Source of the DNA: an uncultured Pseudomonadota bacterium
Lineage (GTDB): Bacteria; Pseudomonadota; Alphaproteobacteria; RF32; CAG-239
Direction of reading: 5' to 3'
Assembly: GCA_949295935.1 (NCBI GenBank)
Contig: CASFMW010000008.1
Location: 1 to 34,039, forward strand
Length of the DNA: 34,039 nucleotides
Shown here: positions 13,761 to 31,296 of the stretch, in pieces
How positions within the stretch are numbered: the stretch's first letter is position 1
Layout: each line of letters opens with the position of its first letter
Made by a program: the position numbers and the translations under genes
The notes under the pieces: model-generated
Told to the model about the DNA's origin: nothing
What the model saw: the letters and a program-made list of their open reading frames with translations, nothing else
Database searches by the model: none

Positions 13761-13835
13761 GGTCCCATCGTCTAATGGTTAGGACATCACCCTTTCACGG
13801 TGGTAATATGGGTTCGAGTCCCGTTGGGATCACCA
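13761..13835 (+). tRNA. tRNA-Glu (anticodon TTC)
   Basis: The 75-base sequence folds as a full cloverleaf. The acceptor stem GGTCCCA pairs with TGGGATC (one G-U). The D arm contains TAATGGTTAGGA. The anticodon loop CTTTCAC (anticodon TTC) sits between TCACC and GGTGG, and the T arm contains GGTTCGAGTCC. Discriminator A and CCA are encoded. The gene is intact. It stands between the flagellar cluster and the prophage, so it may mark the host side of the insertion, although no repeated attachment core is visible. Confidence 0.97.
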
Positions 13836-13840
13836 ATTTG

Positions 13841-13870
13841 AAAAGAGGAAGTTTATACTTCCTCTTTTTT
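13841..13870 (+). terminator. Rho-independent terminator of tRNA-Glu
   Basis: AAGAGGAAG (13843-13851) and CTTCCTCTT (13858-13866) form a perfect 9-bp stem around a TTTATA loop, followed by a T run. It begins 6 bases after the CCA end of the tRNA. Confidence 0.92.
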
Positions 13871-14140
13871 CGTTTTAAATCCTTATCAACAAGCCCTTTA
13901 TTCCGCGCCGATTTGCCAAGCGCGCTGGTAACTGCGTTGGAAATCATCTTAAGAGATTTTCAGTCCTTTTGCAAAAAAAAATGCCCAAATCTATACTTTT
14001 GCCGGAAACCTCTCTATTTTTAGTTACCATTTGCCAGTTTATTGTAAAACAAAAGTTTTTTTGATTGGTTTGTATGTCCTGTTTCGCAACTCGATTACCT
14101 TACCGATTATCTCGCCCAAACTGTGGTTTACAAAAAAATA
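13871..14140. other. Gene-free stretch between tRNA-Glu and prophage early genes
   Basis: I see no convincing gene in these 270 bases. Open frames that cross the region run through the tRNA, lack ribosome sites and have no family resemblance. A short GC-richer patch (about 13896-13945) stands out from the AT-rich surroundings and could be a relic or the host-phage junction. Serine integrase attachment sites are usually beside the integrase gene, so this stretch is the natural place to look for attL, but no direct or inverted repeat identifies it. Confidence 0.5.
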
Positions 14141-14181
14141 AAAAAAGTGAGAACGATTTTTCTTAAATTTGACTTGTTCTT
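14141..14181 (+). repeat. 41-base regulatory repeat, copy A
   Basis: Six A followed by a 35-base segment beginning GTGAGAACGATTTTT and ending TTTGACTTGTTCTT. A second copy at 17036-17076 matches at 38 of 41 bases with no gaps. Each copy lies just upstream of the ribosome site of a small early phage gene. The ends AGAACGA and TTGTTCT are an imperfect inverted pair. It is probably a promoter or operator. Confidence 0.75.
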
Positions 14182-14199
14182 CTGCAAAAGGAGAACAAC

Positions 14200-14352
14200 A
14201 TGACCGATTTAGAAGATTTTATGATGCTGTTTGGACCTGAATTTAAGGCCTATTTGCAACACAAAAGTATAGATAATTTATTGCAGAAAGAACTGGATAA
14301 TAAGCAAAATCCAAGCATTCATTGTGAAACGAAAGGAGTTTCCGATGATTGA
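14200..14352 (+). CDS. Small phage protein of 50 residues
   Basis: A strong AAAAGGAG ribosome site lies 5 bases before ATG 14200. The product is 50 residues, acidic at the start (MTDLEDFMMLFGPEFKAYL), probably helical, with no recognised family. It lies directly downstream of repeat copy A and its 3' end overlaps the DUF2924 start by eight bases, so it is the first gene of the integrase unit. Reality is supported by the ribosome site and tight packing. Function is unknown; small proteins at this place are often regulators, but nothing in the sequence shows that. Confidence 0.6.
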   Translation: MTDLEDFMMLFGPEFKAYLQHKSIDNLLQKELDNKQNPSIHCETKGVSDD

Positions 14353-14755
14353 GGAAGATTTAGCCAAGCTTAACAACATGAATATTAACGAGTTAAAGAA
14401 GCTATTCTTACGCTATTTTAACGCACACCCAACCTTAAAGACCAAGGAGGCCTATATTCTCAAACTTTCTTATCGGATGCAGGAATTGGAGTTTGGCGGC
14501 TTGTCTTCGGCCAGTCGTTCCTTCTTGAGCAAAATCTCAGCCAAGGCACCAAATGTCAAAAAAGTCGCAATCGCACCGATAGGAACCAAAATCATCAAAC
14601 AGTACAAAGGCCGCGATTATGTCATCCGCGTACTTGAAAACGGCTATGAACTAGACGGACAAAGATTTAAGAGCTTATCCGGCATGGCCAAGAAAATTAC
14701 CGGTATGAAAATATCCGGCAGTGCATTCTTTGGATTTAACTTGCGAGGCAAATAA
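14345..14755 (+). CDS. DUF2924 protein, integrase partner
   Basis: DUF2924 proteins are found almost always beside serine integrases in alphaproteobacterial prophages. The 136 residues show the family's two parts. One is a helical N-terminus (MNINELKKLFLRYFNAHP, then LKLSYRMQELEFGG). The other is a small beta domain with GTKIIKQYKGRDYVIRVLENGYELDG, then YRSLS-like FKSLSGMAKKITGMKISG and a final FFGF. ATG 14345 is chosen over an in-frame GTG at 14324 because AAAGGAG precedes it. The stop overlaps the integrase ATG (TAATG). The biochemical role is not established; a helper or directionality role in recombination is a reasonable inference. Confidence 0.85.
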   Translation: MIEEDLAKLNNMNINELKKLFLRYFNAHPTLKTKEAYILKLSYRMQELEFGGLSSASRSFLSKISAKAPNVKKVAIAPIGTKIIKQYKGRDYVIRVLENGYELDGQRFKSLSGMAKKITGMKISGSAFFGFNLRGK

Positions 14756-16461
14756 TGGAAGAGCAGAAAAAAGTCAGATGTGCAATTTATACCCGAAAAT
14801 CAACCGACGAAGGGTTGGATAAGGAATTTAATACCCTTGAGGCTCAACGAGAGGCCGGAGCCAACTACATTTTGAGCCAAAAGCATCAAGGGTGGGTATT
14901 GTTAGATGAACGCTATGATGACGGGGGTTTTAGCGGTGGTAATATCAATCGTCCGGCTCTAAAGAGGTTAATTAATGATGTCGAGGCCGGTAAAATTGAT
15001 ATGATCGTGGTTTATAAAATCGACCGTCTCACACGTTCATTGGCTGATTTTTCTAAGTTGATTGAGGTGTTGGACAAGCACAAATGCTCTTTTGTTTCGG
15101 TAACGCAAAATTTTAATACTTATGATTCTATGGGCCGACTAACCTTAAATGTATTATTATCTTTTGCCCAGTTTGAAAGAGAAGTTGGTGCCGAACGTAT
15201 TCGCGATAAGGTTGCTGCCTCTCGTAAAAAAGGAATGTGGATGGGCGGAAAAGTTCCCTTTGGTTATATGCTCATAAACAAACATCTTGAAATTAACCCA
15301 ACTGAGGCAGAGATTGTCCGCCTGATTTTTAATAAATATATCGCTTGCAAATCTGAACGTGATGTTTGCACCTTCTTAAAAGCCGGAGGATATTGCATAA
15401 ATGCCCGCAAACAAAAGAATGGGACAGAACTTCCGGCTAAAGAATTTACCGTTTCAAAAATTGATTATATGCTCCGCAATCCGATTTATATCGGCAAAGT
15501 TGTCCATAAAGGCACTGTTTATGATGGTCAGCAAGAAGCGATTATCTCTAAAGAACTATGGGAACGTGTTGAAAATACAAGGCTTGGCAATCGCCATGGC
15601 AAACTAAAACCTTCTCGCGTGGTGCGAAATGCTTTACTCAAAGGAATGTTGGATTGTGGTTGTGGCTGTAATTCCTCTATGATACCGACCAGAACCCGAA
15701 AAAAGAACCGCACCTATGAGTATTATGTCTCCTTAAAGGCGGTCAAAGAAGGCTATCAACATTGTGAATTAGGTAGCATTCCGGTCGGAGAACTTGACAA
15801 GTTTGTGTTAAGCAAAATTCAAAATATCTTAAAATCACCACTGTTATTAAATGAACTGCTTAAATATCTCAAACCGGATATGCCGGAAATCGGTATGAAT
15901 GAGTTGCTGCAAAAAACAAAAGCTCCGGAAGACTTCTTTACTTATTTATCGCAAGAGAGCCTTCGCCAGATCCTCGAACGGCTTATTTCACGCGTTATCA
16001 TTTATAAGGACAAACTGGTTATCCGTTTGCTGCCTCTCGGGGCTCTGCTGCTTGAAAAATCTCAAACGGCGGATTTACAAGCATCTGAAGAACATTCTGG
16101 TTTGGCGGAGTTGGTTTATCACATCAGCTTTTCAAGAAAACGCGGGCATATTAAGGTTATCCCGGCTGAAGAAAGCCAAACAGCGGTGGATGAAACACTC
16201 TTAAACGCGCTGGTCAAAGCTCATAATTGGCGCGATAAACTCGAAAACAGCGACATGTCGCTACGAGAATTAGCCCGCAAAGAAAAAGTGGCCCATGTTT
16301 ATATCAGTAAAATGATGAAGTTAACTTATCTGGCGCCCGATATTATTGATGCTATTATTGTTGGCACGCAGCCACAAAGCCTGAAAATAAGCGATTTATT
16401 AAAATCTCCAATTCCGGCCTCGTGGTCAGAGCAGCGTACTAAATATGGGTTTAGCTCTTAA
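14755..16461 (+). CDS. Large serine integrase (site-specific recombinase)
   Basis: This enzyme integrates and excises the phage by cutting attP and attB through a phosphoserine link. The resolvase domain begins with YTRKSTDEG, with the catalytic Ser16, followed by YDDGGFSGGNINRPAL, VYKIDRLTRSLADF and the helix around SFAQFEREVGAERIRDK. The recombinase domain starts near GKVPFGYML and LEINPTEAEIVRLIFNKYI. A zinc-ribbon-like region follows (LKGMLDCGCGCNSSM and a later HCE). Its Cys set is unusual, with three alternating Cys and no clear fourth in the usual YYxC position. The last about 100 residues carry an extra helix-turn-helix-like part (SLRELARKEKVAHVYISKMMKL). Length (568) is normal for the class. 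Confidence 0.93.
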   Translation: MEEQKKVRCAIYTRKSTDEGLDKEFNTLEAQREAGANYILSQKHQGWVLLDERYDDGGFSGGNINRPALKRLINDVEAGKIDMIVVYKIDRLTRSLADFSKLIEVLDKHKCSFVSVTQNFNTYDSMGRLTLNVLLSFAQFEREVGAERIRDKVAASRKKGMWMGGKVPFGYMLINKHLEINPTEAEIVRLIFNKYIACKSERDVCTFLKAGGYCINARKQKNGTELPAKEFTVSKIDYMLRNPIYIGKVVHKGTVYDGQQEAIISKELWERVENTRLGNRHGKLKPSRVVRNALLKGMLDCGCGCNSSMIPTRTRKKNRTYEYYVSLKAVKEGYQHCELGSIPVGELDKFVLSKIQNILKSPLLLNELLKYLKPDMPEIGMNELLQKTKAPEDFFTYLSQESLRQILERLISRVIIYKDKLVIRLLPLGALLLEKSQTADLQASEEHSGLAELVYHISFSRKRGHIKVIPAEESQTAVDETLLNALVKAHNWRDKLENSDMSLRELARKEKVAHVYISKMMKLTYLAPDIIDAIIVGTQPQSLKISDLLKSPIPASWSEQRTKYGFSS

Positions 16462-18400: not shown

Positions 18401-18426
18401 TTTTAGTTAGTAAAGACTGTTTAGTG

Positions 18427-18861
18427 ATGGATAATGATAAAATTAAATATTTAGAGATGATTGAAGGGATTATTTCCCGTCTTGCTTCACATTCTTTTTC
18501 AATTAAGAATTGGTTTATAATTTCTTTAGGAGGGCTTCTCCTTTTTTGCTTGAACCATTCTGGCAACAAAGGTCTTGGGGTAGCATTCGTTGTAACGATT
18601 GCTTTTTATCTAATTGATGCATATTATTTGTTTTTAGAGCGCTGTTTTCGAAAAAAATATAACCAAGCATTATCTGGAGAATGTAATTTATTTGACCTAG
18701 ATATTAGAGCTATAAAAAATGAGATATCTATGTGGTCGGCAATGAAATCGTTGTCACTACTTTTATATTTTGTTACATTTATCCTATTGTTCTTATTAGG
18801 AATTATTGCTAACTATACAGCGCTTAAAACTTCATTGTGTTCTAACATTTGTACTATTTAA
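18427..18861 (+). CDS. Small membrane protein of a TIR/E2-like cassette
   Basis: The 144-residue protein has three probable membrane segments: about 27-42 (WFIISLGGLLLFCL), 50-72 (GVAFVVTIAFYLIDAYYLF) and 105-127 (SLSLLLYFVTFILLFLLGIIA). The opening (IEGIISRLASHSFSIKNW) and the LIDAYYLFLERCFRKKY stretch after the second segment resemble a widespread unnamed family of small bacterial membrane proteins often seen next to TIR proteins. I know the pattern but not a family name. A membrane effector or anchor role is inferred. GTG 18424 is also possible; ATG 18427 is preferred but has only a poor ribosome site. The gene is AT-rich relative to phage neighbours and lies 11 bases before the TIR gene. 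Confidence 0.7.
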   Translation: MDNDKIKYLEMIEGIISRLASHSFSIKNWFIISLGGLLLFCLNHSGNKGLGVAFVVTIAFYLIDAYYLFLERCFRKKYNQALSGECNLFDLDIRAIKNEISMWSAMKSLSLLLYFVTFILLFLLGIIANYTALKTSLCSNICTI

Positions 18862-18872
18862 AGGACTATATC

Positions 18873-19553
18873 GTGACTACTTATTTTAATGTAAAAGATT
18901 TTACAGATATTCAACTTAGTAAGAATTTTGCAGAAGATCGGAATTGTCAGGTTTGCAATGCTTCGGTTCATGGTAAGCAGAGCAATTATGATGTGTTTAT
19001 ATCTCATAGTTCAAAAGATAAAGTTTTAATACAAAAACTTCGAATTTATTTAGAAGATCATTTTGGCTTGTCAGCCTATATTGACTGGGATGAGGATTGT
19101 GGAATGTCTCGAGATCAAGTTGCAGATAGGGTAAAAGATGCTATGTTTCGGTCTAAAACTTTTTTGATTGTAAAAACTGACAATTCGGATAAGTCATCTT
19201 GGGTTTCTTGGGAAACAGGATGTTTTGAGATAATGTGTTCTTCTCCCGATAAAGATAATTTTGAAAAAATTGGAGTTTTACTTATTGAAGATGAGAGTAA
19301 AAAGTTTACAAAAGAAACTTTTGAACATCAAGAGTATCTTAAACGATACGAAATTATTGGAAAAGATGAATTGCAGGCTTTTGTTGAAGGCGGAAGACAA
19401 AAAATTTTAGAAAATAGAGCTCTAGAAAGTAAGATTGTTGAATTTGATAAAAGTTTTAGAGATCGTTCGTTAAAAGTTGACCATTCTACAGCAACATTGA
19501 AAAGTGTTGCTGTAGGTTCTGGTACCACGACATCTTTTTATGGAGATGAATAG
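18873..19553 (+). CDS. TIR-domain protein
   Basis: The TIR domain spans about residues 38-160. It opens with NYDVFISHSSKDK, has a strand and loop at AYIDWDEDCGM, and contains SSWVSWETG. In this last motif Glu114 is four residues after Trp110, the arrangement of the catalytic Glu in NAD+-cleaving TIR enzymes. A short N-terminal part of about 37 residues holds a CxxC (CQVC). The C-terminal about 60 residues are charged and helical, ending in a Ser/Thr/Gly tail. GTG 18873 with AAAGGA upstream is the likely start; an upstream in-frame ATG at 18849 overlaps the previous gene. NADase activity is inferred from the kept Glu. Such domains are used in antiphage defence such as Thoeris, but no Thoeris partner is here. 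Confidence 0.88.
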   Translation: MTTYFNVKDFTDIQLSKNFAEDRNCQVCNASVHGKQSNYDVFISHSSKDKVLIQKLRIYLEDHFGLSAYIDWDEDCGMSRDQVADRVKDAMFRSKTFLIVKTDNSDKSSWVSWETGCFEIMCSSPDKDNFEKIGVLLIEDESKKFTKETFEHQEYLKRYEIIGKDELQAFVEGGRQKILENRALESKIVEFDKSFRDRSLKVDHSTATLKSVAVGSGTTTSFYGDE

Positions 19554-19555
19554 TT

Positions 19556-20050
19556 TTGTATTATCCTAAAATTGATTATTTTCAAAAATCTTTTAAGGAT
19601 TTATGGAGTATAAAAGGCTCACGTTGCCGTTGGGGAAAACGTGGGCATTTTATTATTTGCGAAGTTACAGTATTATCGAATTTTCAAGAAAAGCCATATA
19701 CACTTTGTATTAATTATGAAAAAAATTGGTCACCTCGTGTGTGGATAGTAGAACCTAATTTTTTATCTGGTACATATCCTCATACTTATGCTCATCAGTC
19801 AAATTCACTATGTTTATATAGTGATCAACTTTGGCAATGGCGTTCTGGATATAATATTGTTGATACAATAGTTTGTTGGGCATTAGCTTGGATTAGTTAT
19901 TATGAATATTATGCTCTGTTTAATAAATGGGTAGGACCAGAGGCTCCACATGATGTACACCTTTCTAATGAACATATCAAAAATAAACTTCGAAAAAAAA
20001 AGAAGCTTCAAAAACCTATATATTTAAAAGATTATCCTATTCGTTATTAG
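19556..20050 (+). CDS. Prokaryotic ubiquitin-E2-like protein
   Basis: The 164-residue protein is Trp- and Tyr-rich. Its core resembles prokaryotic E2 (ubiquitin-conjugating-enzyme-like) proteins: RVWIVEPNF, then YPHTYAHQSNSLCLY, then QWRSGYNIVDTIVCWALAWISYYEYY and WVGPEAPH. In that family a His-rich strand precedes LCLY, and Cys86 here would be the catalytic cysteine. E2-like proteins of this shape occur in short type II CBASS operons and other conflict systems. No E1, JAB peptidase, ubiquitin-like protein or CD-NTase is in this window. The TTG start, with GGAG ten bases upstream, follows the TIR stop by two bases. The C-terminus is very basic (IKNKLRKKKKLQK). The family call is from motif recognition and needs a profile search. 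Confidence 0.65.
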   Translation: MYYPKIDYFQKSFKDLWSIKGSRCRWGKRGHFIICEVTVLSNFQEKPYTLCINYEKNWSPRVWIVEPNFLSGTYPHTYAHQSNSLCLYSDQLWQWRSGYNIVDTIVCWALAWISYYEYYALFNKWVGPEAPHDVHLSNEHIKNKLRKKKKLQKPIYLKDYPIRY

Positions 20051-20211: not shown

Positions 20212-21237
20212 ATGAAAAAGACGGCTGAGTTTGTTTCTCTCGGGCATCCGGATAAAACAGCAGATTATATTTCATCATACATTTTGGATCGCCTGCTGGC
20301 TCAAGATAAGAATGTCCGCTATGCGGTGGAGGTTTTGCTTAAAGACAATACTGTAGTTTTAGGAGGAGAAGTCTCCGGAAATGTCGATTTGTCAGAAGTT
20401 AAAGAGTTTGTCAAAGATGCTTTGCGAGATATTGGTTATGATGAGAACTATGCAGCGCGCTGGGGAAAATATGCGATTGATGTCCGTAAAGTTGAAATTA
20501 TTAACCTTATTGGGCAACAATCAGCAGACATAAAACAAGGTATTGAACAGAACGGCTGGGGTGATCAAGGTATATTTGTTGGTTATGCTTGCCAAGGGGA
20601 AGATTTTATCAGTCGTGAGATGTTTTTAGCTCGCAAGTTAAATAGAGCTTTGTATCAAAAATCTCGTCAAAGTAAAAATCTTGGGATTGATATAAAAACT
20701 CAGATAACCTTGGATGCCTGTGGTAACGTGGAAACAGCTATTGCTGCTGTTCCAATGTTAGAATATGAAGATCTGACGGATTTTATTATTGAAACGCTAA
20801 ATGAAAAGCCAAAAAATATCATTATTAACGGCACCGGAATTTATCAATATCATTCCTCAATAGCAGATTGTGGTGTTACCGGCCGAAAACTTGCTTGCGA
20901 TTTTTATGGCGTAACTTGCCCGGTTGGCGGAGGTAGCCCTTGGGCCAAAGATGCCAGTAAAGCTGATGTTAGCTTAAATCTTTATGCCCGCAAGCTAGCC
21001 TTGAGATATTTGGAAGATAATGATGAATGCTTTGTTTATTTGGCGTCTTGTATTGGAAAGTCAGAACTTCCAAGTGCTGAAGTTAAAACCATCAAGGAAG
21101 GTAAAATCCAAACCACAACGCTTTCAATCACTCAAACCCCATCCGAAATTATATCAGAATTAGGCCTAAATCAACCGATCTTTGCAAAATTATGTAGAAA
21201 TGGTCTCGTATATCGAACGGGTCCTTCCTGTGATTAA
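20212..21237 (+). CDS. metK: Phage-encoded S-adenosylmethionine synthetase
   Basis: MetK joins methionine and ATP to make S-adenosylmethionine. Family landmarks are present: SLGHPDKTADYISSYILD with His12 and the ATP-binding residues, LGGEVS, GDQGIFVGYA at 117-126, and INGTGIYQYHSSIADCGVTGRK. The glycine-rich P-loop-like GGGSPWAKD with ASKADVS is also there. At 341 residues it is about 40 shorter than bacterial housekeeping MetK, mainly in the middle and C-terminal parts, and GGGAFSGKD of the classic enzyme reads GGGSPWAKD. It lies behind two terminators and about 200 bases before a DNA methyltransferase. A phage copy feeding that methyltransferase, or overcoming a host SAM-destroying defence, is inference. 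AAGGAAAAACT precedes the ATG. Confidence 0.88.
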   Translation: MKKTAEFVSLGHPDKTADYISSYILDRLLAQDKNVRYAVEVLLKDNTVVLGGEVSGNVDLSEVKEFVKDALRDIGYDENYAARWGKYAIDVRKVEIINLIGQQSADIKQGIEQNGWGDQGIFVGYACQGEDFISREMFLARKLNRALYQKSRQSKNLGIDIKTQITLDACGNVETAIAAVPMLEYEDLTDFIIETLNEKPKNIIINGTGIYQYHSSIADCGVTGRKLACDFYGVTCPVGGGSPWAKDASKADVSLNLYARKLALRYLEDNDECFVYLASCIGKSELPSAEVKTIKEGKIQTTTLSITQTPSEIISELGLNQPIFAKLCRNGLVYRTGPSCD

Positions 21238-23400: not shown

Positions 23401-24720
23401 ATGGCAGAAGAGTTAGATGAGATTTATTTTGATGATACAGAGAATGAAGAAGCAACCGAAACTTTTCTGTCAAGTAACATTAACACAAATATAGCAGATC
23501 CCGATTTTTTTACATTAGTTAGAAGAATTAACAATGGTACTATAAATTTGCAGCCAGATTTTCAAAGAGGATATGTTTGGGATAATCATAAAGCTAGTAA
23601 ATTAATAGAGTCTATTCTTTTAGGTATACCATTGCCTACAATCTATTTGGCGGAAGAAGCTAATGGAAAAGAAGTAGTTATTGATGGGCAACAGCGTCTT
23701 ACAGCCGTAAAACTGTTTATGGAAAATGAATTTAAATTGATTGGTATTCAATCATTTCCGGAATTAAATAAAAAATTATTTAAAGAATTACCCGATGATA
23801 AAAAGAAAACCATTGAGAATGGCTCTATTCGTACAATTACATTTAAAAAAGATAGTGATGAAGATTTAAAGTTTGCTATTTTTGAAAGATTAAATACAGG
23901 TTCTGTTCCATTAAATGACATGGAGTTAAGAAACTGTATATATCGAGGTAATTATATAGAACTTTTAAAGAAAATGGCTGAAAATACGACTTTTAGAAAG
24001 TTAATAGGTATTAAAACAGCAGATAAAAGAATGAAAGATGTGGAACTAGTATTAAGATTTTCAGCCTTATATCATGCCACTTACTTAAACTATGAAGCTC
24101 CCATTAAAACATTTTTAAACAAGGATGCTAAAAAATATCAAAAAATATCAAAAGAGGATGCTGCAAAATTATTAAGTGCTTTTCATAATTCATTAAAAAT
24201 CATAGATTCTTTGTTCGCAGATAAAGCTTTCAAACGTTACTATGCAGGTACAGATGCTAATAATTCCGGGTATTGGGAAAATAAAAAATTTAACGTATCT
24301 TTATATGATGCCCTCATGTTTGCCTTTAGAGATAAAGATGTAAATATGGTTATGAATACAAAGGATTTAATAAGAGAGGCCATTATAGGTCTCATGACTT
24401 CGGATGAGAAATTTATTGAATCTATATCCAGAAGTACAAGTTCAAAAGACATGTTGCAATATCGTTGCGAAGTTGTTGAAAGACTTATTAAAGATGTTTT
24501 GAATACAACATCAAAGCAACCCCGTTGCTTTACATTAGAATTTAAACAACATCTATTCGACAATAATCCTACATGCGAAATTTGTGGCAATAGAATTGAA
24601 CATATTGATGATGCAGCGGTGGACCATATAGAACAATATTGGCAAGGAGGAAAAACGATTCCAGAAAATGCACGATTAACACATCGATATTGTAATAATG
24701 CACGAAAAAGAAAAGAATAA
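23401..24720 (+). CDS. DUF262-HNH nuclease-like protein (GmrSD-type)
   Basis: Residues 30-300 are a DUF262/GmrS-like domain. The landmark DFQRGYVWDNHKASKLIESILLGIPLP is near 54-80. The ParB-like nucleotide-site motif VIDGQQRLTA is near 93-102, followed by FERLNTGSVPLND. The last about 45 residues are an HNH nuclease module with a CxxC (CEICGNRI), a DHIEQYW segment and a closing HRYCNNARKR. DUF262 proteins with HNH modules act in type IV-like restriction (GmrSD) and similar phage defence, often NTP-dependent. The gene is AT-rich, has AAGGAAG upstream, its own promoter-like palindrome and a strong terminator after it, so it looks like a separately controlled cargo gene inserted before the packaging genes. 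The target is unknown. Confidence 0.87.
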   Translation: MAEELDEIYFDDTENEEATETFLSSNINTNIADPDFFTLVRRINNGTINLQPDFQRGYVWDNHKASKLIESILLGIPLPTIYLAEEANGKEVVIDGQQRLTAVKLFMENEFKLIGIQSFPELNKKLFKELPDDKKKTIENGSIRTITFKKDSDEDLKFAIFERLNTGSVPLNDMELRNCIYRGNYIELLKKMAENTTFRKLIGIKTADKRMKDVELVLRFSALYHATYLNYEAPIKTFLNKDAKKYQKISKEDAAKLLSAFHNSLKIIDSLFADKAFKRYYAGTDANNSGYWENKKFNVSLYDALMFAFRDKDVNMVMNTKDLIREAIIGLMTSDEKFIESISRSTSSKDMLQYRCEVVERLIKDVLNTTSKQPRCFTLEFKQHLFDNNPTCEICGNRIEHIDDAAVDHIEQYWQGGKTIPENARLTHRYCNNARKRKE

Positions 24721-27165: not shown

Positions 27166-27392
27166 ATAAAGAAACGTTAAAAATCAGATTGGTCGAAGCC
27201 GAAGAAGCTTATCATAAACTTATGATTGGTGTTAAAGAGGTTTCGGTTAATGTCGGAAATTTTGGCTCTGTTAGCTACAATCAAACCAATAGAGCCGAAT
27301 TGGCCGCTTACATATCGAACCTCAAATCCCAGTTAGCTATAGCCGAAGGGAAGCCATTCGGCAAAAGAAGAATTATGAAAGTAGCATTTTAA
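27156..27392 (+). CDS. gpW-like head-tail joining protein
   Basis: gpW-type proteins fill the portal exit after packaging. The 78-residue product has the family pattern: a helix with EAEEAYHKLMIG, a hairpin VSVNVGNFGSVSYNQTNRAEL, a helix AAYISNLKSQL, and a basic tail. It overlaps the end of the terminase gene by ten bases and its stop overlaps the portal start (TAATG). This is the lambda order A-W-B. Confidence 0.85.
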   Translation: MAIDKETLKIRLVEAEEAYHKLMIGVKEVSVNVGNFGSVSYNQTNRAELAAYISNLKSQLAIAEGKPFGKRRIMKVAF

Positions 27393-28858
27393 TGTCAGAA
27401 ACATCACACAAAGCAGCATCACATACTTTGCGAGAGATTGCCTCATGGCAACCGGGACGAGGTTCGGCAGATAGCGATTTGTTGCCGGAACTCTCAACCA
27501 TGGTGGCTCGTTCACGTGATTTATCAAGAAATCATGGAATTGCCGCCGGCGCCATGCAAACCTTAACCGATAATATTGTTGGTACGGGTTTTCGCTTATC
27601 GGTCAAGCCCGACTATAAAGCACTCGGTAAAAGCAAAGAGTGGGAGGAAGAATGGCAAGTAAAAGTCGAAGGATTATGGCGCTCTTGGGCCGAAAGTTTT
27701 AATTGTGATGCCGGCAGAAACCTTAATTTTCATAGCTTGACCACGCAAATATTCAAATCTTGTCTTATCAATGGAGAGGCTTTAGCCTTGGCCTTGTGGT
27801 TGCCGGACAGAGATTTTGCAACTACCTTGCAGTTGATAGAACCTGATAGATTATCTAATCCGCAGAATGGTTGTGATAGTAAAAATATGCGCGGTGGTAT
27901 TGAGATTGATAAGTTTGGTGCACCGATTGCCTACCATATCCAAACCGAACATCCTGGAGATTATTGGAGTAAAACGCCAATCTGGCAGAGGATTCCTGCC
28001 TTTACGAGTTTTGGCCGCCGGCGCGTTTTACATGTTCATGATATTAACCGCATTGGGCAAACGCGAGGCAAACCGATTTTAGCCTCGATTATGCCCATGT
28101 TCAAAATGCTTGACCATTATGAGCGTTCAGAACTGCAAGCAGCGATTGTTAATGCCATGATTGCCGCTTTTATTGAAACCCCAATGGGCGGTGAAGAGCT
28201 AAACGAGTTGTTTGGCGGTTCAACAGATGATTACCTAAATGCTAAAAAAGATTGGCAAGTTAAGCTGGAGGGCGGTTCTATTATCCCGATATTTCCGGGA
28301 GATAAGGTTGCACCATTCACTCCGTCTCGCCCAAATTCGGCTTATGGGGCATTTGTTGAAAATCTGCTTCGTCATATCGGCACCGGTTTGAATATTCCGT
28401 ATGAGTTGCTCCTAAAAGACTTTTCCAAAACCAATTATTCTTCCGCTCGTTCGGCTTTGCTTGAGGCTTGGCGTTATTTTAACGGCAGAAGACAGTGGCT
28501 TGCTGACTATTGGGCAACACCGGTTTATGAACTTTGGTTGGAAGAGGTAGTTAATAAAGGCTTGATAGATGCGCCGGACTTTTATCAAAATCGCTATGCT
28601 TACAGTCGTTGCAAGTGGATTGGCCCGGGGCGTGGTTGGGTTGATCCGGTAAAAGAAGCCCAAGCCTGCCAAATTCGTATGGAAATCGGCTTGTCTACTC
28701 TGGAAGCTGAATGCGCAAGTCAAGGTTTGGATTGGGAAGAAGTTTTGGAACAACGAGCCCGAGAAAAGAATAAAATTAAGAAAATGGGCTTGGATGAAGT
28801 CAAAATTAACGGAAAAACTGTAATTTTGGAGGAAGATAAAGAAGTATCTGGTAAATAA
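27392..28858 (+). CDS. Phage portal protein (lambda GpB family)
   Basis: The portal forms the dodecameric ring through which DNA enters and leaves the head. The N-terminal part (MVARSRDLSRNHGIAAGAMQTLTDNIVGTG) is diagnostic for the lambda B family. So are the middle (LQLIEPDRLSNPQNG, VLHVHDINRIGQTRGKPILA) and the GTGLNIPYELLLKDFSKTNYSSARSALLEAWR stretch. The 488-residue length is normal. The C-terminal Glu/Lys-rich tail is typical of connector-binding ends. The gene is followed by an opposite-strand Fic gene, where lambda would have the protease gene. Confidence 0.96.
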   Translation: MSETSHKAASHTLREIASWQPGRGSADSDLLPELSTMVARSRDLSRNHGIAAGAMQTLTDNIVGTGFRLSVKPDYKALGKSKEWEEEWQVKVEGLWRSWAESFNCDAGRNLNFHSLTTQIFKSCLINGEALALALWLPDRDFATTLQLIEPDRLSNPQNGCDSKNMRGGIEIDKFGAPIAYHIQTEHPGDYWSKTPIWQRIPAFTSFGRRRVLHVHDINRIGQTRGKPILASIMPMFKMLDHYERSELQAAIVNAMIAAFIETPMGGEELNELFGGSTDDYLNAKKDWQVKLEGGSIIPIFPGDKVAPFTPSRPNSAYGAFVENLLRHIGTGLNIPYELLLKDFSKTNYSSARSALLEAWRYFNGRRQWLADYWATPVYELWLEEVVNKGLIDAPDFYQNRYAYSRCKWIGPGRGWVDPVKEAQACQIRMEIGLSTLEAECASQGLDWEEVLEQRAREKNKIKKMGLDEVKINGKTVILEEDKEVSGK

Positions 28859-28888
28859 AATATCCTTATCTGGTAATATCTGGTAATT

Positions 28889-30046
28889 TTATAATGGCTC
28901 CACATTCGAAGATAATAGATCTGTATATTTTTGATATGTATATATTTGGCCCCATTTTTTTTCGGAATTATTTACCAAAATCCCCAAGTCAATTAAATGA
29001 TTTAAGGATTTTATGACAGTTGGTTTTGTACTTCCTATCATTTTTATGATTTCAGAAACGGTAAGCATGGGTTTCTTTTGAAATGCTGAAAATACTTTTA
29101 AAGCAGATTCAGATGCTCGACCGAGAGTTTTTATCTGTTCAATATCTGCTGAAAAGATGTTTTGAATATTTATAAGTGTTTTTTTGGCATCATTTGCTGT
29201 TTCAATAACACCTTCTAAAAAGAATTTAATCCAATTCTCCCAGTCTCCGTCTTTACGAACAGCATTGAGAGTATCATAATACATGGTTCTATTCTTTTTG
29301 AAGAATAAACTCAGGTATAAGAAAGGAGAATCTAGAACACCTTTTATGCATAAGAAAAATGTAATTAAAAGACGACCGAGTCTTCCATTTCCATCAAGAA
29401 ATGGGTGTATCGTTTCAAACTGTACATGGATAAGAGCAGCCTTGATTAAATTTGGAATATTATCTTCGCTATTCATAAAAATTTCTAAATTTCCCAGAAC
29501 AGACATGAGTTTTTCTGGTGGAACTGGAACAAATCGAGCATTGCCAGGTCTTGTTCCGCCAATCCAATTTTGGGATGAACGAAACTCTCCAGGAAGTTTT
29601 GTTTTCCCTCTTGAGTTAGTAAGAAGTATTTTATGAATTTCACGAATGAGACGTAAAGATAAAGGAAAGCCGTCCTTAATTCGTTGCAACCCATGATTTA
29701 AAGCCGCTACATATGAAGACACTTCAGATGCATCTGCAATGGGAATACCTTGCGTCTGCTCTGATTCATATCTTAAAAGATCATCCAATGTTGATTGAGT
29801 TCCTTCAATTTGTGATGATAATACAGCTTCTTTACGTACATACATATAATTTAGAATGGAAGAATCTATTGTTGTTTCTACAACACCATTTAGTTCTCCG
29901 ATGGATTGATTAGCTTTTTCTAATAAAACAGATACTTCTGATAAATCAATATCAGGTTTCGGTGGTAATGGATTAGGAACAAAGGCTTGATATGTTTCAG
30001 ATGTTACTGAGCATTTTACTAAAGTTCCTTGAATATCACGTTTCAT
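28889..30046 (-). CDS. Fic-domain protein with self-inhibitory N-terminal motif
   Basis: Fic enzymes usually transfer AMP from ATP to hydroxyl groups of target proteins. The full active-site motif HPFLDGNGRLGR lies at residues 214-225. The inhibitory motif SSQIEG (Ser77 to Gly82, S-x-x-x-E-G) sits N-terminal to it, as in self-inhibited class II Fic proteins. The N-terminal Fic_N region (about 30-100) includes VSVLLEKANQSIGELNG. The last about 60 residues look like a winged helix (LTVSEIIKMIGSTKPTVIKSLNHLIDLGIL), which may bind its own operator. The gene reads against the phage late genes, between portal and protease. AAAGGAG precedes the ATG, with TATAAT at 30064-30069. It is AT-rich and looks acquired. 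Confidence 0.93.
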   Translation of the reverse strand: MKRDIQGTLVKCSVTSETYQAFVPNPLPPKPDIDLSEVSVLLEKANQSIGELNGVVETTIDSSILNYMYVRKEAVLSSQIEGTQSTLDDLLRYESEQTQGIPIADASEVSSYVAALNHGLQRIKDGFPLSLRLIREIHKILLTNSRGKTKLPGEFRSSQNWIGGTRPGNARFVPVPPEKLMSVLGNLEIFMNSEDNIPNLIKAALIHVQFETIHPFLDGNGRLGRLLITFFLCIKGVLDSPFLYLSLFFKKNRTMYYDTLNAVRKDGDWENWIKFFLEGVIETANDAKKTLINIQNIFSADIEQIKTLGRASESALKVFSAFQKKPMLTVSEIIKMIGSTKPTVIKSLNHLIDLGILVNNSEKKWGQIYTYQKYTDLLSSNVEPL

Positions 30047-30063
30047 GGTATCTCCTTTGTTTT

Positions 30064-30162
30064 ATTATAAGAGTATCATAACCAAATAACCTTTACAAGT
30101 CAATATAAAAAGTAAAGGTTTGCAACTTATTCTTTACTTTTGAAAAAAGAAAGTAAAGGTTT
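30064..30162 (-). promoter_or_regulatory. Fic promoter with two dyads (ACCTTTAC/GTAAAGGT)
   Basis: The minus-strand -10 box TATAAT is at 30064-30069. AACCTTTAC (30088-30096) and GTAAAGGTT (30112-30120) are a perfect 9-bp inverted repeat with 15 bases between, overlapping the expected -35 region. A second perfect dyad, CTTTACTTT (30132-30140) with AAAGTAAAG (30150-30158), follows. GTAAAGGTTT recurs at 30112 and 30153, 41 bases apart. This looks like an autoregulated operator. Confidence 0.6.
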
Positions 30163-30186: not shown

Positions 30187-31296
30187 ATGAAACTATTCAA
30201 CAAAACAATCTGGGCGATAACCCCGGAGATGTTACAAACCATGATGAGCTTAGCCAAGGAGAACAATAAACCACCAGAAGCCATTGCCCGAGAAATGGGA
30301 AAAGAAATGAAAGATAGCAACGCCGCCTCAGTTCGAGACGGCGTTTGTGTTATTAGGCTCTGCGGACCATTGTTTCGCTATGCCAACCTCTTAACCAAGG
30401 TTTGTGGTGCTACATCTTATGAGCTTTTTGCTCAAGATTTTAACAAAGCCCTAAAAGATCCAACTATCAAAGCGATTGTCCTAGATATTGATAGTCCGGG
30501 AGGTGAAGTTAACGGATGCTCGGAGGTCGCAGACATTATTTACAAGGCACGCGGTCAAAAACCGATAATTGCTTATGCTTCGGGCGCTTGCTGTTCTGGA
30601 GCTTATTGGATAGCTTCAAGTTGTGACCGGATTTTGGTTGCAGATACGGCGATTTTAGGTTCAATCGGTGTTGTTTCGATTTTTGAAAAAGATGATGAAG
30701 ACCAAACCATTGAAATAGTGTCTTCGCAAAGTCCAAACAAAAGACCAAATATTCAAACCGAAGCAGGGCGCGTCAAAATACAAGCCCATGTAGATGCTTT
30801 GGCTGATGTTTTCATTACCAAAGTCGCACAAAACCGCAATATTTCACCGGAAGATGTGGTGCAAAATTTTGGCGGCGGGGATGTCTTTATCGGTCAAGAA
30901 GCTGTCCGCAAAGGTCTGGCGGACGGCTTGTCCTCTTTTGAGGAAATAATTTCAGACCTCAGCCATAAGGAGAAAACTTTAATGATTGAAAATCAAACTA
31001 ATTTTTCAGCCACTGAGATTAAACAGGCCGAAAGAGAGCGCATGAGCCAAGTCTTTGCCTCAGATACAAGCAAGGGCAAAGAAGCCACGGCACAAATGTT
31101 ACTCGCCAAAACAGATTTGGCAGCAGCTGATATTCTTATGATTTTGGATACAGTGACGACTGCCAAGCCAACAACTGATTTTGCCGCCGTAATGGCCAAG
31201 GTTAAAAATCCGGAAATTATGCCGGCAAACGATATGAGCGAAGAAACCCCCGATATGGTGGCCAAGAGAATTGCCGCCTATGCTAAAGGAGAATAA
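30187..31296 (+). CDS. Phage S49 head maturation protease with C-terminal scaffold
   Basis: Lambda C-type proteases process the prohead. Residues 50-250 are the S49/ClpP-like fold: LDIDSPGGEVNG near 100-110, the likely nucleophile Ser137 in ACCSGAYWIAS, then AILGSIGVVSIF. The region after residue 260 is a scaffold, rich in Ala and helices (EIKQAERERMSQVFASD). A second start for it lies inside the gene. The 369 residues fit lambda C plus Nu3. AAAGGAAAC precedes the ATG. It is separated from the portal by the Fic gene. Confidence 0.92.
   Translation: MKLFNKTIWAITPEMLQTMMSLAKENNKPPEAIAREMGKEMKDSNAASVRDGVCVIRLCGPLFRYANLLTKVCGATSYELFAQDFNKALKDPTIKAIVLDIDSPGGEVNGCSEVADIIYKARGQKPIIAYASGACCSGAYWIASSCDRILVADTAILGSIGVVSIFEKDDEDQTIEIVSSQSPNKRPNIQTEAGRVKIQAHVDALADVFITKVAQNRNISPEDVVQNFGGGDVFIGQEAVRKGLADGLSSFEEIISDLSHKEKTLMIENQTNFSATEIKQAERERMSQVFASDTSKGKEATAQMLLAKTDLAAADILMILDTVTTAKPTTDFAAVMAKVKNPEIMPANDMSEETPDMVAKRIAAYAKGE
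30982..31296 (+). CDS. Nested scaffold protein (Nu3-like), in-frame internal start
   Basis: AAGGAG lies 9 bases before ATG 30982, in frame with the protease at residue 266, just where the protease domain ends. The 104-residue product (MIENQTNFSATEIKQAER and on) is Ala/Glu-rich and helical, as expected for the separate scaffold that lambda makes as Nu3 from inside C. The internal ribosome site is the direct evidence; expression is inferred. Confidence 0.6.
   Translation: MIENQTNFSATEIKQAERERMSQVFASDTSKGKEATAQMLLAKTDLAAADILMILDTVTTAKPTTDFAAVMAKVKNPEIMPANDMSEETPDMVAKRIAAYAKGE

Follow-up and report, generated by a model that had tools for sequence, protein, structure and literature searches.

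A SoFic-Type Fic Gene and Its Operator-Like Array as Cargo between the Head Genes of a Prophage

The Fic Gene and Its Surroundings

The window, i.e., the whole stretch of 34,039 nucleotides analyzed here, contains a prophage and belongs to a genome of 1.54 Mb. The genes for head formation lie on the + strand in the order terminase, gpW, portal, protease, gpD, and capsid, where gpW and gpD are names we presume from gene position. The earlier note had reported a Fic gene on the opposite strand between portal and protease, and the gene lies there, flanked by the two + strand genes. The features of the locus are as follows:

27392-28858, + strand: portal protein gene, left border of the cargo slot (family matches)
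28845-28854, 28867-28876, and 28877-28886, + strand: three TATCTGGTAA units, proposed remnant of a former Fic2 operator
28889-30046, - strand: SoFic-type class II Fic gene, 385 aa (ORF list, Pfam, PADLOC, PDB matches, structure alignment)
28931-29071, - strand: C-terminal winged-helix domain, about residues 326-372, proposed operator-binding part (Pfam, AF2 model, structure alignment)
29372-29407, - strand: Fic catalytic motif HPFLDGNGRLGR, residues 214-225 (alignment of 32 homologues)
29801-29818, - strand: N-terminal inhibitory motif SSQIEG, residues 77-82 (alignment; class II description from PMC12249575)
30075-30080, - strand: -10 hexamer TATGAT of the fic promoter (promoter scan)
30088-30120, no strand: operator dyad 1, AACCTTTAC-N15-GTAAAGGTT, a perfect 9-bp inverted repeat spanning the -35
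30098-30103, - strand: -35 hexamer TTGACT of the fic promoter (promoter scan; same place in relatives)
about 30131-30159, no strand: operator dyad 2, CTTTACTTT-N9-AAAGTAAAG at 30132-30158, 41 bp from dyad 1, with half-sites likewise 22 bp apart
30187-31296, + strand: head maturation protease (S49) gene, right border of the cargo slot (family matches)

Pfam matched Fic_N and Fic domains in the 385-aa protein, together with an ArsR-like HTH slightly below threshold (21.1 bits, cut-off 22), and the PADLOC SoFic model PDLC03963 matched it over its whole length (residues 18-379, 5.8e-119). SoFic chains in the PDB were also matched by the sequence. The AlphaFold2 model, built from 32 sequences (mean pLDDT 89.9), aligned with the SoFic crystal structure 3zcn over 353 residues (model residues 8-381; Z 41.1, rmsd 2.4 A), with the C-terminal domain covered, in agreement with the winged-helix-like part described previously. 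Identity to SO_4266 of Shewanella oneidensis was about 25%. The class II inhibitory helix, located N-terminal to the Fic domain, has the consensus [S/T]xxxE[G/N], which SSQIEG satisfies. Likewise, HPFLDGNGRLGR satisfies the catalytic consensus HPFx[D/E]GN[G/K]R (PMC7479194). Both motifs, which the earlier note had called full, are intact, with almost every residue invariant or near-invariant across the 32 aligned homologues. A toxin or defence role in the lysogen, as proposed from the first reading, is suggested by membership of the SoFic family (PADLOC, structure) and by papers on relatives. A search of a viral fold library gave weak matches, with Fic proteins among the top ones, and tblastn against phage records returned 62 records, all below 60% identity, the top being Brochothrix phage BL3 (33%). 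A second, distant Fic gene (26%) was observed in the same genome (L002, G000:C17:25097-25984).

Several other genes of the prophage were annotated. Three consecutive PADLOC matches at 18424-20050, namely a small protein (PDC-M50A, 1.9e-27), a ThsB-like TIR protein (5.2e-26), and an E2-like protein (5.5e-23), suggest a compact defence operon that shares the prophage with SoFic. An S-adenosylmethionine synthetase-like protein (phrog_1569) is encoded at 20212-21237, followed by a gene that appears ParB/methylase-like by eye, with no family match. A protein with GmrSD_N and HNH domains (23401-24720; PADLOC NsnA, 3.5e-95) is encoded directly before the terminase genes, and a tRNA-Glu, a DUF2924 protein, and a large recombinase/integrase at 13761-16461 likely mark the left prophage end.

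Putative Promoter and Operator Dyads of the Fic Gene

A promoter-like site, TTGACT-17-TATGAT, with 10 of 12 consensus matches and in the same place in relatives, precedes the Fic gene on its strand. The order along that strand is dyad 2, dyad 1 (which contains the -35 TTGACT), the -10, and the start codon. The perfect 9-bp inverted repeat over the putative promoter and the second dyad 41 bases further, as described in the earlier note, were confirmed. In both dyads, half-sites of the form YYTTWAC and GTWAARR are placed 22 bp apart, and the offset from dyad to dyad is 41 bp. With up to three mismatches allowed, the dyad pattern occurred twice in the window against 0.09 expected, and in none of 100 shuffles. 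YYTTWAC-N15-GTWAARR was found at three places in the 1.54-Mb genome (control, 0): the two dyads and one site of different sequence on another contig.

As inverted repeats in an intergenic region, the dyads could also be RNA elements or transcription terminators, a reading we consider very improbable. In relatives the repeats overlap the -35 and extend upstream of it; they are A+T-rich and absent from the terminator-like matches. A scan that detects simple intrinsic terminators found no terminator-like site after fic.

Conservation of the Putative Operator among SoFic Homologues

Homologues with 59-100% identity were found in Alphaproteobacteria, Spirochaetota, Verrucomicrobiota, Synergistota, Planctomycetota, Elusimicrobiota, and one Rickettsiales bin. 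Many of these relatives are metagenome bins, so the phylum labels may be wrong; on the Fic protein tree the Spirochaetota need at least three changes, some of which could be explained by bin errors. The upstream DNA of the homologues is mostly dissimilar, yet it repeatedly contains the dyad array, and in most homologues the -35 keeps its position. The spacing was counted in 30 of 44 loci (the window and 43 others), excluding L039, for which the match does not cover the N-terminus, and 13 loci at or below 46% identity. In 27 of these 30 close loci, which are kin and hence do not represent 30 independent events, one or more half-site pairs with 22-bp spacing (46 in all) were present within 300 bp upstream. 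The background of 0.006 pairs per 300 bp gives about 0.2 loci expected among 30, and spacings of 17-20 and 24-26 yielded no pair in the same loci. The Treponema loci L018 and L019 carry three dyad units each. Loci L015, L023, and L025 had no 22-bp pair within the 300 bp upstream, and no dyad array was seen within 150 bp in L016.

The promoters of more divergent relatives differ. Among 29 further alphaproteobacterial homologues (44-77% identity) and 8 more distant ones, many carry other inverted repeats, of which the following SoFic-subfamily dyads are examples:

L107: TATCTTTTCTT/AAGAAAAGATA
L113: TCCTTTAATAA/TTATTAAAGGA
L036: TTATTCTAATA/TATTAGAATAA
L032: TTTAACTAAAA/TTTTAGTTAAA

Of 67 fic promoters, 50 showed an excess of inverted repeats, defined as at most 2 of 40 shuffles reaching the observed number (the window itself, 2 of 40); among 140 other upstream regions, a random sample of 256 from the fetched loci, 24 did. 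The other 17 fic promoters had no clear excess.

The gene neighborhoods were compared in 27 of the 43 homologous loci. Fic was the sole gene family common to more than three loci (24 of 27), while every other family was limited to at most three, these being phage loci. With no other gene widely common, the Fic gene and its operator seem to move as one unit, without a partner. A downstream antitoxin similar to AS1 was also sought among 77 small ORFs located within 400 bp of fic in 25 loci, and none was found. Downstream small ORFs were common to at most five phage loci (the window, L003, and L005-L007), where this stretch is mostly portal gene, and none was common with chromosomal loci. In the window, 30 bp separate fic from the portal stop; a 61-aa antisense ORF (28720-28905) considered as a partner lies mostly inside the portal gene and was rejected.

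The possible self-repression raised in the earlier note gains strong support from comparison: across phyla the gene is accompanied by its operator, and subfamilies have operators of different sequence. Such a pattern would be expected if the C-terminal winged helix of Fic itself bound there, as experiments have demonstrated for the Fic protein CccR. The covariation of operator and protein adds a weaker signal. In a matrix test with 62 proteins, operator similarity correlated with HTH distance after correction for the catalytic core (partial rho -0.15; 4 of 999 permutations), and with core distance after correction for the HTH (partial rho -0.18). These correlations fit coevolution of operator and protein; with the HTH no better than the core, this partial Mantel-type comparison does not single out the HTH as the operator reader, and it was discarded as proof of coevolution.

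A host or phage regulator other than Fic, switching fic upon stress or during the lytic cycle, might bind the dyads instead. Dyads at a -35 would suit any dimeric repressor, and the partial correlations do not point to the HTH of Fic in particular. Nevertheless, the same array follows fic across several phyla with no other gene widely common, and a common host regulator would have other targets, whereas the pattern in this genome is confined to fic and one site of another sequence. We regard such a regulator as quite unlikely, and binding by Fic itself as the preferred reading.

A Variable Slot between Portal and Protease

Phage morons are accessory genes in prophages, and the Fic gene had initially been described as moron-like cargo. 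SoFic was found in 15 of 152 family genomes (E up to 1e-60), and the portal gene at 24 places in 21 of the 152. Portal and protease are adjacent at 16 of these 24 places. The slot between them holds SoFic at five (L062, L063, L068, L070, and L073) and Fic2, a different Fic described below, at two (L064 and L079); at the remaining one (L072/L094) other small genes are followed by the contig end. The slot could be measured in 48 of 60 viral contigs, being closed (134 bp or less) in 43 and open in the following five:

L151: Fic2
L155 (contig that also gave L046): SoFic
L189: SMR-type transporter
L194: 254-aa protein
L204: 173-aa protein

Of two further viral contigs, one (L198) breaks off within SoFic and the other (L160) encodes a DUF4143 ATPase. 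The portal-Fic-protease order thus exists elsewhere, in family genomes as well as in viral contigs (L151 and L155). In all slots observed SoFic is antisense and Fic2 sense, although this regularity may reflect few events.

The insertion point was fixed by an empty and occupied pair, L093 and L005, whose left-hand alignment extends to AGGAGAAAACCATGAAA and whose right-hand alignment begins at AGGAAAAACCATGAAA. The start region of the protease is duplicated on both sides of the cargo in this pair, so that the protease keeps its ribosome site. Outside phages, the SoFic gene sits among unrelated chromosomal genes. The description as moron-like cargo is borne out by the closed junctions, this pair, and the chromosomal copies, and the presence or absence of the gene at one site in related phages supports its status as phage cargo. 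That the gene is a fixed structural component is contradicted by close phage relatives with no Fic gene, and this reading was rejected.

Other toxin or toxin-antitoxin genes were observed between head genes of related phages, at gpW-portal or beyond: RelE with an HTH (L091, 7751-8399), a ParDE-like pair (L169, 1585-2135), ParE alone (L092, 2766-3056), and Fic2 (L088, 5643-6701). Antisense ORFs of 93-99 aa lie between gpW and portal in L090 (6844-7140), L093 (5960-6241), and L095 (6306-6605); those of L090 and L093 had no Pfam match. In L086 (693-1837) the head protease is split into two ORFs, possibly by a sequence frameshift or because the gene is broken.

SoFic could alternatively serve mainly in growth control or the stress response of the cell, having been picked up by phages by chance and providing neither defence nor a benefit to the lysogen. 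Most homologues examined outside phages are located among unrelated genes, and Fic proteins of other species are reported to act on topoisomerases or FtsZ. An accessory toxin or defence gene better explains the patchy distribution (15 of 152 family genomes), the occurrence in cargo slots of phages, and the match to the PADLOC SoFic model, and we consider the growth-control role unlikely.

Fic2 and a Possible Operator Fossil

Loci L086 and L087 are close relatives of the window, with portal genes 97-98% identical and visible protease 88-99% identical, and their slot holds a 352-aa Fic protein (Fic2) with 23-25% identity to the window Fic. Fic2 relatives occur in 23 of the 152 family genomes. 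The Fic2 promoter in L086 is TTGACTTATCTGGTAATATCTGGTAATATCTGGTAAAG. Promoters were compared in 14 of 24 Fic2 loci (L128-L140 and L151; L141-L150, mostly with 57% identity or less or partial, were excluded) and contain 53 TNNGGKAA units, many of them 10-11 bp apart, against a background of 0.054 per 120 bp. At least three units are present in 12 of the 14; L137 and L140 have none of this form, although L140 has degenerate copies. The tandem unit varies with the protein, occurring as TATCTGGTAAT, TATTAGGTAAT, and TATTCGGTAAT.

In the window, the first of the three TATCTGGTAA units lies within the end of the portal gene and the array adjoins the SoFic stop codon. The alignment with L086 runs gapless from the portal through the second unit, and no other occurrence of the tandem pair was found in the genome with up to three mismatches. 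Of 211 loci, 19 (nine distinct places) contain the TATCTGGTAA unit, either in a Fic2 promoter or in a slot occupied by other cargo, and the exact unit was found at no closed portal-protease junction. The simplest account suggested by these repeats is that Fic2 held the slot first and was replaced by SoFic, leaving the upstream part of the Fic2 operator behind. The SoFic slots of L005, L006, and L007, which have degenerate sequence in place of an exact TATCTGGTAA unit, count against this account.

The repeats might also belong to the phage slot itself, as an element for recombination or regulation, since TATCTGGTAA lies beside three kinds of cargo there (SoFic, Fic2, and the DUF4143 ATPase). 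Against this, related tandem units precede Fic2 at loci with no nearby portal match (L130, L132-L136, L138, and L139), degenerate ones precede Fic2 in another slot of another phage (L088/L140), the units change with Fic2 to TATTAGGTAAT or TATTCGGTAAT, and closed junctions lack the exact unit. We therefore give the slot element little credence and prefer the operator remnant.

Proposed Mechanism

Taken together, the locus is probably a one-gene, self-regulated SoFic cassette carried as phage cargo in the head operon. The gene would be transcribed against the head genes from a sigma-70-type promoter, most likely in the lysogen. The protein would dimerise through its N-terminal part, and the SSQIEG helix would block the ATP site and keep it mostly inactive. 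The C-terminal winged helices could bind the two dyads, with their 22-bp half-site spacing and 41-bp repeat, cover the -35, and hold expression low. If inhibition were lost, AMPylation of host targets might stop growth or block a rival phage. Because SoFic would carry both operator and repressor, we propose that it needs no antitoxin and can spread among phages and chromosomes across phyla; here it may have taken over the slot held earlier by a Fic2 cassette. Judging from orientation, and as speculation, late head transcription running antisense across fic might silence it.

A broader reading is possible, although we hold it tentatively and at somewhat less than even chances. Fic toxins with a C-terminal winged helix would generally be antitoxin-free, self-repressing cassettes in which protein and operator evolve and move together, and phage head-gene slots (gpW-portal and portal-protease) would be exchange sites where an occupant is replaced and its operator is left as a fossil. 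Antisense late transcription would then silence fic in lytic growth, so that the cassette would be on in the lysogen and off on induction.

Comparison with Known Systems

The window protein resembles known SoFic proteins (PADLOC SoFic; SO_4266, 3zcn/3eqx; EcSofic-AS1 of E. coli, PMC12249575) in its whole-length fold, its Fic_N, Fic, and C-terminal domains, and its catalytic and class II inhibitory motifs, but differs in its low identity to SO_4266 (about 25%) and its location in a phage head operon. EcSofic was reported as a dimeric toxin, incompletely held by auto-inhibition, with the downstream antitoxin AS1 in one strain (PMC12249575). In contrast, the window-type loci have no AS1-like small gene in common downstream, and possess a conserved operator array, a feature that the available part of that report does not describe for EcSofic.

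CccR of Yersinia pseudotuberculosis, a T6SS effector, also combines Fic with a C-terminal HTH and represses its own promoter through one 46-nt site, AGATAATCAT-N26-ATGATAATCT, with palindromes near the -35 and -10 (PMC9755527). Autorepression by a Fic toxin is thus already known; the window SoFic shares the domain combination and the palindromes at its own promoter, and probably the autorepression, here in a group with no visible antitoxin. The DNA-binding helices of CccR are about 70 A apart (PMC9755527), and the 22-bp half-site spacing corresponds to about 75 A. Unlike the single CccR site, the SoFic group has two or three dyads with this spacing, repeated every 41 bp. CbFic2 of Coxiella burnetii (PMC10628234, 8cil), a class II Fic with a C-terminal wHTH and a dimer in the crystal, has the same build as the window SoFic. 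It bound random DNA, which stimulated its activity, with no specific operator reported in the portion of the article available, and this may count against the reading of a specific operator by the window protein; according to the same portion, DNA binding of SoFic had not been shown at that time.

The locus further resembles phage morons and the P2-like defence hotspots (PMC9122126) in having an accessory defence or toxin gene in a variable prophage slot, but differs in its position within the head operon, where portal and protease flank the slot, in the antisense orientation of the gene, and in apparent traces of a previous Fic. No publication describing an operator array of a prophage SoFic was returned by a search of titles and abstract openings in the open PubMed Central literature. 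Novelty apparently lies in the portable operator, the exchange of slot occupants, and the proposed fossil. Auto-inhibition alone is leaky in SoFic-type defence toxins (PMC12249575). If the proposed mechanism is true, a conserved, portable operator read by the toxin itself would account for how antitoxin-free SoFic proteins stay harmless and explain their entry into new phyla with no partner. From the proposed fossil of the Fic2 operator, it seems that cargo slots of prophages can preserve a record of earlier occupants.
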